Positions 2,573 through 5,341 of a stretch of DNA of 37,774 bases are shown one piece after another. The notes below the pieces were generated by a model. That model saw only the letters and a list, made by a program, of their open reading frames with translations. It ran no database searches and was not told where the DNA came from. Made by a program: the position numbers and the translations under genes. Numbering within the stretch: the first letter of the stretch is position 1; each line of letters opens with the position of its first letter. Origin of the DNA: Bacillota bacterium (lineage in GTDB: Bacteria > Bacillota > Limnochordia > Limnochordales > DUMU01); assembly GCA_012839805.1 (NCBI GenBank), contig DUMU01000011.1, forward strand, positions 1 to 37,774, read 5' to 3'.

Positions 2573-2582
2573 TATATTGACA
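2573..2582 (+). promoter_or_regulatory. possible promoter elements for the ATPase leader
   Basis: TATATT (2573-2578) could be a -10 box giving transcription from about 2585, which would include the whole folded leader. A consensus -35 hexamer TTGACA overlaps it at 2577-2582. If that were the real -35, its -10 would fall near 2600-2606 and the transcript would lose the 5' strand of the closing stem. The two readings exclude each other, and only transcript mapping can decide. Confidence 0.3.
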
Positions 2583-2602
2583 CAGTAGGCCACCACATGG
2601 TT

Positions 2603-2683
2603 AGATATAAGTGTCAAGTCGGCGGGGATACTGCCGGCTGGGCTCGCAAGAGCAGCAGGGTAAGCCTGTGGGACGATGTCTCA
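2603..2683 (+). ncRNA. candidate metal-sensing riboswitch (NiCo-like)
   Basis: Leader RNA of the P-type ATPase gene. Visible stems: closing helix AGATAT (2603-2608) with ATGTCT (2676-2681); GTCGGC (2618-2623) with GCCGGC (2633-2638); GCTC-GCAA-GAGC (2642-2653), a GNRA-capped hairpin preceded by GGG; and CAGG (2656-2659) with CCTG (2665-2668), followed by TGTGGGAC. This gives a four-helix layout. GGG before the third hairpin and TGTGGGAC after the fourth resemble, from memory, the Co/Ni-binding NiCo (czcD) riboswitch. Those riboswitches lie upstream of cation exporters. The 5' part matches less well. The fourth stem and closing helix overlap the terminator, so folding of the sensor would prevent termination. 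Another metal riboswitch class, for example yybP-ykoY, is possible. Confidence 0.45.
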
Positions 2684-2693
2684 CAGGCTTTTT
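2662..2693 (+). terminator. intrinsic terminator in the leader
   Basis: A perfect 9-bp stem AAGCCTGTG (2662-2670) and CACAGGCTT (2682-2690) encloses an 11-base loop and runs into TTTTT (2689-2693). It lies 33 bases before the ATPase start, so it acts as a conditional attenuator rather than as the end of the previous operon. Its 5' arm shares bases with the fourth stem of the candidate riboswitch, and its loop holds the 3' strand of the closing helix. Confidence 0.75.
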
Positions 2694-2725
2694 ACGTCTA
2701 TTAACATACGTAAACACGGGGGGCC

Positions 2726-5341
2726 ATGTCCATGATAGTTAGCGATGAAACCCGGCCGCCAGTTTCAATTACGCGTGCAGGACTATCGCAAGAAGAGGCC
2801 GAGATCCGGCTGCGTAAATTCGGCCCCAACGAGCTGGCTGAGGATAGGCCTCCAAACCCGCTCTCCACGTTGGTCACCGTGTTCAAAGAGCCCATGTTTT
2901 TACTTCTTATAGCCGCTCTTTCCGTCTATCTCTTCCTGGGTGAGATTCACGAAGCTGCAACCATGGCAGTGTTCGTCTGCTTTGTGGTAGGAATCACTTT
3001 CGTACAGGAATGGCGCACCGAAAAGACCATTCAAGCTCTAAAAGATCTATCTGCACCTAAGGCCACGGTCTTACGCGGCGGTGAACGGCGTCGCATCCCC
3101 ACGCGTGAGGTAGTGCCGGGAGATATCCTCGTTCTCGAGGAAGGCGAACGTATCGCCGCCGACGGCCGTCTCCTGGAGGTGGCCGATCTGGCCGTCGACG
3201 AATCGGTCCTTACGGGTGAATCCGAACCGGTGTGGAAGGAAGCCGCTTCGGATACGGGACGTGATGGAAGCAGGAATGACGACACCGGCGAATTGTGGCG
3301 ACATGACCTGTGCTACGCCGGAACCATGGTGGTCCAGGGGCAGGGGCTGGCGGAAGTCGTGGCCACCGGCGCGGCGACGCAATACGGGCGCATTGCCAAG
3401 GCCCTAAAGGAAGTCGAGGATAGGCCTACGCCCCTCCAGATCAAGATCCGGCACCTGGTAAAAGGCACGGCCTGGCTGGGTCTTCTTCTGTGCCTGCTCG
3501 TGGTCATCGTGACCCTGGCCCGAGGCACGGGATGGGTCAACAGCGTGATCGCCGGGATCACTTTGGCCATGGCGATGATCCCTGAGGAATTCCCGGTGGT
3601 GCTCACCGTTTTTCTGGCGCTGGGAGCCTGGCGGCTGGGGCAAAACCGAGCCCTTATCCGTAAGACCCCCGCCGTCGAGACGCTGGGGTCTGCCACCGTC
3701 CTTTGCGTCGACAAGACCGGGACCCTTACGCTCAACCAGATGACCGTCAGGGGCGCCTATTTCCGCGGTCGGGACTGGCAGTCCGACGATCCCGAGTTTC
3801 CCCGGACGGCCCGCGAGCTCTTAGAGCTGGGGGTTCTCGCCTGTGAGACGGAGCCGTACGACCCGATGGAGAAGGCGCTTCATGACATGGCGCGCCGGAG
3901 CGGATGCGCACCCGAAAGCATCTATGAAGGGCGTGACTTCGTACACGAGTACCCGTTCACTCCTGCGAATAAGATGATGGGCCACATCTGGCAGCGTCGG
4001 GCAGCGGCAAGACCCGCGGGCGACGCCGAGCCCGCCGCGTTGCTGGCGGTTAAGGGGGCACCCGAGACCGTGCTGCCGCTTTGCCACTTGACCCCGGACG
4101 AGCGGGACGAGATCAACGCCGCCGTGTTGCGCCTCGCCCGGCAGGGCTGGCGGGTGCTGGCTTTTGCCAAGGCCGAAGGAGTGACCGTCCCCTTTGCCGC
4201 GAACATTTCTGATTACACGCTAACGTTCGTCGGGCTGATGGCCCTCGCTGACCCGCCTCGCCCCGGGGTGCGGGAGGCGGTCGCGACCTGCAGGCAAGCC
4301 GGGGTACGGGTCGTGATGATCACCGGTGACCATGCGGTTACCGCACAAGCCATCGGGCGGGAAATCGGCCTGGCTCGCTGGGAACGGGTCCTCACCGGAG
4401 CCGACATAGAGCGGATGAGCGATGCCGAACTAGCGGAGGCGGTCCGGCAGACGGACATCTTCGCCCGCGTCATTCCCCAGCACAAGTTACGGATCGTTCG
4501 CAGCTTGCGGCAGAACGGCGACATTACCGCCATGACCGGTGACGGCGTCAACGACGCCCCGGCGCTGAAAGAGGCGGACATCGGCATCGCCATGGGGCGT
4601 CGGGGGACGGAAGTCGCCCGCCAGGCGGCCGACATGATCCTGCTGGACGACAACTTCACGACGATAGTTCACTCGGTGGAAGACGGACGCCGGATCTACG
4701 ACAACATCCGGAAGGCCATCGCCTACATTATGATCATCCACATTCCTATCGCGGCGCTGGCCTTGCTCGTTCCGGCGCTGCAGCTGCCGTTGCTGCTGCT
4801 GCCGGTTCACATCGTGCTTCTGGAACTGCTGATCGACCCGACGTGCTCTATCGTCTTCGAGGCTGCACCGCCGGAAGAGAATGTTATGGCGAGGCCGCCG
4901 CGGCCGCCGCAAGAACCTCTGGTAAACCGGGGGATGGTCGCCCAGATTCTGTTGCAGGGAGCGACCGTCCTGTTGGCCGCCCTGTTGCCATACATGCATT
5001 TGCTAAATAGCGGAGCAAGTGTGGAGCTGGCGCGCACGGTGGCCTTTACCACTCTGGTTCTGTCCAACATAGGCCTGGTGTTGGTCAACGGCAGCGAAAC
5101 GCAGTTTGCTCTGCAAGGTCTGATCCGGGGGAAAAACAAGGCCCGTCTATGGGTCAACGGTCTTACGCTGGTTGCGTTAATCGGAATCGTGTACGTCCCA
5201 TTTCTGCAGAAAATGTTCGCCACCGCGCCGCTCAATCTGACGCAGGCTGGCTGGGCGGTTGGGCTCGCCATGGCCGCAACGTTCTGGTGGGAATTGGTGA
5301 AGGCCGCTCGCAGGTGGAGCAGGCGTTCACGACGTGGCTGA
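2726..5341 (+). CDS. P2-type cation-transporting ATPase
   Basis: Membrane pump of the Ca2+/Mn2+ (P2A, SERCA-like) branch, 871 residues, the usual length. In order: N-terminal cation-ATPase domain; actuator domain with TGES (about 164-167); helix 4 with PEEFP, which keeps the ion-binding glutamate of PEGLP; phosphorylation site DKTGTLT with Asp 329; nucleotide domain; hinge [11 protein letters not shown] (about residue 603); and six C-terminal helices. Helix 6 reads [11 protein letters not shown], where calcium pumps have N..TDG, so the ion is uncertain. The leader suggests metal-induced expression and therefore efflux of a metal such as Co, Ni or Mn. The start may be ATG 2732 rather than 2726: the GGGGGG at 2718-2723 sits 8 bases before 2732 but only 2 before 2726. 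Confidence 0.93.

Follow-up and report, generated by a model that had tools for sequence, protein, structure and literature searches.

The window, by which is meant the whole 37,774-nt stretch of DNA that was analysed, contains a gene for a P-type ATPase and, upstream of it on the same strand, a compact leader in which a predicted four-way RNA junction (helices P1-P4) overlaps an intrinsic terminator. The features of this locus are as follows:

2577..2582, + strand: putative -35 hexamer TTGACA, a perfect consensus, kept in the sister species Limnochordales bacterium Bu89 (locus L039)
2601..2606, + strand: putative -10 hexamer TTAGAT, weak (3/6), 18 nt after the -35 and likewise kept in L039
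2604..2678, + strand: NiCo-type aptamer, the span matched by covariance model R1 (28.5 bits, E 2.5e-7), which is the sole R1 match in the window
2612..2615, + strand: P1 5' strand (UGUC) of the fold, with its partner at 2672-2675
2617..2639, + strand: P2 hairpin (2617-2625/2631-2639) of the fold and of alignment A1, with A2617-U2639 instead of the usual G-C or G-U
2640..2642, + strand: GGG in the sequence, the likely counterpart, matched by position, of G45-G46-G47 in the solved NiCo RNA
2642..2653, + strand: P3 hairpin (2642-2645/2650-2653) of the fold, with a GCAA (GNRA) loop
2655..2669, + strand: P4 hairpin (2655-2659/2665-2669) of the fold; its 3' strand is common to the terminator
2670..2674, + strand: GGGAC in the sequence, counterpart of G87-G88 and of most of the P1 3' strand; common to the terminator
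2662..2693, + strand: intrinsic terminator from the fold, with stem 2662-2674/2678-2690 and T run 2689-2693
2718..2723, + strand: G-rich stretch that resembles a ribosome-binding site in sequence
2726..5341, + strand: P-type ATPase, 871 residues, a complete E1-E2 ATPase by Pfam

The minimum-energy fold of 2611-2680 (+ strand) is the four-way junction P1-P4 (-30.6 kcal/mol, z -3.2), and none of 200 shuffled sequences is as stable. This agrees with an earlier note on this DNA, made from the sequence, which had described four helices with a GGG (2640-2642) beside a GNRA hairpin and TGTGGGAC (2667-2674) after the fourth stem. P1 consists of four pairs, one of them U-G, and is continuous (UGUC/GACG), without the internal loop of A14/G15 against A that most NiCo members have. 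The terminator stem has 13 pairs, of which the lower nine are perfect and are followed by one G-U and then three more; it is worth -21.0 kcal/mol (z -6.5, 0/200 shuffles as stable), and the T run closes 33 nt short of the ATPase start (2726), just where a perfect 9-bp terminator with a T run had been placed. (A simple terminator scanner found none and leaves this terminator unlisted, probably because the stem occupies part of the T run.) The 5' arm of the terminator holds, or borders on, the P4 3' strand, GGGAC, and nearly all of the P1 3' strand, the shared positions being 2665-2674, and thus aptamer and terminator are mutually exclusive, as had been supposed for the fourth stem and the closing helix. 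When the 3' arm of the terminator is included in the fold, the terminator is the minimum-energy structure and the aptamer is displaced.

Judged from sequence, transcription would start near 2612, where P1 begins. In compact relatives, L036 and L033 among them, the same conserved C is preceded at 10-11 nt by the end of TTGACA-N17-TATAAT or TAGAAT. Folding of the whole stretch also gives a stem 2578-2583/2611-2616, and the earlier note had the element begin at 2573. A fifth RNA helix spanning 2577-2617 is possible, but its 5' arm is the perfect -35 hexamer, and because of this a stem extending as far as 2577 more likely represents promoter DNA than RNA; the closing helix is instead the short P1, 2612-2615/2672-2675. 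The palindrome TTGTCCGACAA (2558-2568), considered as an operator, is absent from L039.

Assignment of the leader to the NiCo (czcD) class begins with Rfam. When 4227 families were searched against 2480-2780, NiCo (RF02683) gave the sole match below E 1 (2601-2678, 23.1 bits, E 0.0051), in an alignment that spans the full model; the score lies below the Rfam cut-off of 37 bits, and a gathering-level Rfam scan of the window gave no match. The cut-off is a library threshold and not a structural trait, and it was not taken as defining, because the leaders of L008-L010, which precede genes for CDF exporters, miss it too (31.0-34.7 bits). For a second covariance model, R1, 30 NiCo RNAs from within the phylum were used, and the window and its sister (L012/L039) were deliberately excluded. 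R1 took 30 of 41 NiCo loci (L148, L150, L152, L156, L157, L158, L160, L163, L164, L170, and L011 were also omitted), and nine of its 30 rows precede an ATPase; these include at least the L050 and L080 leaders, which consequently match R1 by construction. In a search of the 2.78-Mb genome with R1, the leader is the best match at 28.5 bits, and the next reaches 19.5. One other place, C41:86540-86675, outscores the leader with the Rfam model (30.6 vs 23.1 bits) but falls to 17.3 bits with R1 and is without the GTGGGAC end, and it was taken as a chance match; it shows that sub-threshold rankings need caution where genomes are GC-rich. Weaker Rfam NiCo matches in relatives (E above about 0.005) were likewise set aside, since most are without the GGGAC end, the exception being L012, which is the sister leader.

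Excerpts of PMC7689651 describe the metals as held by G46, G47, G87, and G88 (and G45) in 4RUM numbering, and the leader has guanines at the places aligned with these ligands (GGG 2640-2642 and GG 2670-2671, matched by position). GGGAC is present in 30/30 rows of A1, the alignment of 30 NiCo RNAs, and 13 of the 14 invariant columns of A1 are kept in alignments read by eye; in the remaining column G18 has become A, and its partner has become U. (Base-pair counts in NiCo RNAs come from an alignment that had itself been fitted to the model.)

The gene association was examined by searching 84,980 species genomes with the ATPase protein only, using six seed peptides (including MAMIPEEF and IAYIMIIH) and keeping the best 80 of 271 candidates. 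In 65 of these 80 relatives a NiCo RNA detected with R1 lies upstream on the same strand (64 full-length, and one, L037, cut by a contig end). The leaders lie outside the search seeds, as does transmembrane helix M6 of the pump, and both are thus unselected. The other 15 of the best 80 have no NiCo match; they include L084 and L102, with 0 and 41 nt of upstream sequence, and L082, whose leader is masked, yet its NiCo 3' half and terminator are visible. Upstream of 27 calcium-type ATPases from related genomes there are no R1 matches, the best stray being 15.2 bits and within a gene. The nearest relative outside the genus (L034, at G002:C45) has an ATPase of the same group, with the His/Glu/Cys site, and no detectable NiCo leader, and L115, which has the same ATPase as L034, has no upstream R1 match either. 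A scan for other riboswitches at 14 ATPase loci without NiCo found none at the Rfam gathering level (the scan had 15 sources, the fifteenth of which, L100, has NiCo). In the reverse direction, what follows the 41 NiCo loci detected by Rfam is a CDF gene in 26 cases, an ATPase of the same kind in 13, and an unassigned frame in two; across the phylum, NiCo matches with E no higher than 0.001 occur in 98 of 398 genomes. The NiCo riboswitch and this pump group are linked, and the link recurs in many bacteria.

Two further observations concern individual loci. L162 and L163 (about 1501-1596) have NiCo matches above 59 bits, and neither query, CDF or ATPase, matches the frames that follow. In L062 (Enterococcus pallens), an ATPase of the group occurs without NiCo, and on the opposite strand upstream there seems, by eye, to start a MerR-like regulator.

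A separate observation concerns NiCo leaders of Clostridia (e.g. L061 at about 3095-3150, L058, L147, and L075), which carry a two-part 5' extension at or upstream of the 5' edge of the Rfam model. After short and identical leaders had been dropped, together with L037 and a chance match in L033, 101 of 106 leaders were counted, and among these 101 distinct leaders 55 have both parts (TTTGCRCTG and CAGTACAA), one has only the first, four have only the second, and 41 have neither. By their sequences the two parts could pair, UUUGCACUG with CAGUACAAA, and CAGUACAAACUG can fold back on the P1 5' strand, perhaps to act as an upstream relay in competition with P1; their co-occurrence may reflect shared ancestry. 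This extension is absent from the window.

The pump itself resembles calcium ATPases and departs from them at the ion site. Its scores against the NCBIfam calcium equivalogs fall under the cut-offs for the PMCA, SERCA, and PMR1 types (559.1/798.3, 447.8/703.4, and 387.5/507.05 bits). The motifs in question are PEEFP in M4 (286-290), HIPIA in M5 (672-676), and residues 699-708 of M6. Among the best 80 of 271 relatives, H672, I675, E700, D704, E288, and C707 are present in 80/80 and I703 in 79/80. At the places of H672, I675, E700, D704, and I703 the 27 calcium-type controls show N, mostly E, N, D, and T, and at those of E288 and C707 they show G and P, with 26/27 readable at most of these places. 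Two of the six search seeds fall in M4 and M5, so the uniformity seen there is partly selected, and that in M6 is not. The departure of helix 6 from calcium ATPases, which the earlier note had pointed out, is thereby borne out, with E700, I703, and C707 against N, T, and P in the controls. His, Glu, Asp, and Cys at the ion site would suit Fe2+, Co2+, or Ni2+, and the pump presumably moves a transition metal.

Which metal this may be is bound up with a dispute over the class, whose ligand was Ni2+/Co2+ in the original work and Fe2+ in later work, according to excerpts of PMC7689651 and PMC11477304. Chances appear about even that the riboswitch is the same but responds in the cell to Fe2+, with the ATPase exporting iron, which would make NiCo a misnomer here. 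The text available from PMC7689651 reports an affinity for Fe2+ and argues that Fe2+ and Mn2+ alone are sufficiently available, and that from PMC11477304 calls the class an Fe2+ riboswitch; however, the in-line probing of the original study, as told in that part of PMC7689651, saw no iron binding. The Fe2+ importer FeoB is present in both genomes of the genus, and the cobalt/nickel importers CbiM and NicO have no match in either, so that an excess of imported cobalt or nickel is less expected, but the comparison covers two draft genomes and, among Ni/Co importers (which also include, for example, ABC types), CbiM and NicO. The residues of the pump, for their part, would suit any of the three metals. 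Fe2+ is at least as likely as Ni2+ or Co2+ to be the ligand, and the importer content leans to iron. The two genomes also have CDF exporters (3 and 2 matches), and no other R1 place in the leader's own genome exceeds 19.5 bits, CDF genes notwithstanding. Since this pump group, with its distinctive ion site, goes together with the riboswitch (65 of the best 80 of 271 relatives), the cargo of the pump would reveal the metal of the riboswitch.

A weak P1, the lost internal loop, and the low Rfam score might instead mark a NiCo riboswitch that has decayed and lost metal sensing, and in the sister species (L039:4001-4400, corresponding to G001:C2 at about 122943-123374) the ATPase frame is shifted near codon 45, either by an assembly error or because the gene is broken. 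Decay is nevertheless quite improbable. L039, the nearest named relative, by which the organism falls in the Limnochordales, has an ATPase 83% identical to that of the window, and the aligned leader and gene together are also 83% identical, whereas 80 nt of the leader are kept with only five differences. Two of these are in the P3 loop, one is in the P4 loop, and the remaining two form a compensated pair, U2669-A2683 to C-G, which keeps a terminator pair and turns a P4 G-U into G-C. Moreover, the P1 form of the window (GUGUC vs GGGAC, no internal loop) is also found in L008, L009, and L010, before CDF genes. As these three leaders have the same P1, its departure is read as a lineage form rather than as decay, and as they too lack the internal loop, that loop, which is common and not universal, was not taken as defining.

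An ordinary intergenic terminator or constitutive attenuator that senses no metal is a reading that the stability of the terminator by itself (-21.0 kcal/mol) would allow, but it leaves unexplained the conserved junction, the guanines of the NiCo class, the top R1 score in the genome, and the association in 65 of the best 80 of 271 relatives, and it is very improbable. The chance that the leader belongs to another class of metal riboswitch (yybP-ykoY manganese or M-box) is close to nil, as neither of these families gave a match up to E 10 in 2480-2780 or at gathering level in the window, even though manganese riboswitches too precede P-type ATPases, as excerpts of PMC11477304 report.

Taken together, these results argued that the leader very probably belongs to the NiCo class, of which it is a divergent member and not something new in kind, and controls the ATPase by transcription attenuation. 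The NiCo identity put forward in the earlier note as a candidate is supported by RF02683 as the sole meaningful match (at 23.1 bits, under 37), the R1 ranking, the conservation in the sister species, and the linkage to the pump. The class works, in the account given in excerpts of PMC7689651, by metal-induced release from an intrinsic terminator, an ON attenuation, and a metal-on switch for the pump, by analogy, would fit that mechanism. Transcription would begin near 2612, and the P1-P4 junction would form, with guanines 2640-2642 and 2670-2671 binding at least two transition-metal ions (Fe2+, Co2+, or Ni2+). Once bound, the metal would hold P4 and P1 together and keep 2662-2674 out of the terminator, so that polymerase would continue into the gene of the pump; in the absence of metal, the terminator, as the stronger structure, would form at 2662-2693 and stop transcription. 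The pump, once made, would export the metal. The leader thus most likely lets the pump be made under an excess of iron, cobalt, or nickel.

With the curated NiCo family (RF02683) the leader has in common the four-way junction P1-P4, the GGG between P2 and P3, GGGAC after P4, an overlapping terminator, and a metal-transporter gene downstream; it differs in being shorter (about 65-75 nt against 96), in having no P1 internal loop, in an A-U pair where the family has G18-C47, and in the absence from the window of the frequent 5' flank ACAGUACAA. As the leader shows, compact GC-rich members can escape the curated model, so that counts of the class may be too low in some lineages, Limnochordia among them. 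Elsewhere in the same taxonomic class, the NiCo riboswitches that match clearly precede CDF (czcD-type) exporters (L002-L011 and L112), and among these the leaders of L008, L009, and L010 share with the window the GUGUC/GGGAC P1, the core, and the kind of terminator, but have a longer P2, a CDF exporter downstream, and a higher Rfam score. It is a tentative, and rather doubtful, extension of these results that ATPases whose helix 5 carries His and whose helix 6 carries Glu, Asp, and Cys form a group of dedicated Fe2+ (or Co/Ni) pumps apart from calcium ATPases, marked by a NiCo riboswitch in several phyla (as judged by record titles), and that the Limnochordia riboswitch has been tuned, with its remodelled P1, to another metal or affinity than those studied. 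The closest solved structures to the pump are those of the calcium ATPase LMCA1 (Listeria lmo0841) and its relatives (E 1.5e-131), but where LMCA1 and SERCA have a calcium site of N/E/N/T, the group of the window has H672, I675, E700, and I703, together with E288 and C707. Finally, according to excerpts of PMC7689651, in Listeria too a NiCo riboswitch stands before a P-type pump; the Listeria pump, however, is of the P1B type (PfeT-like), whereas that of the window belongs to a calcium-ATPase-like branch with an altered ion site.
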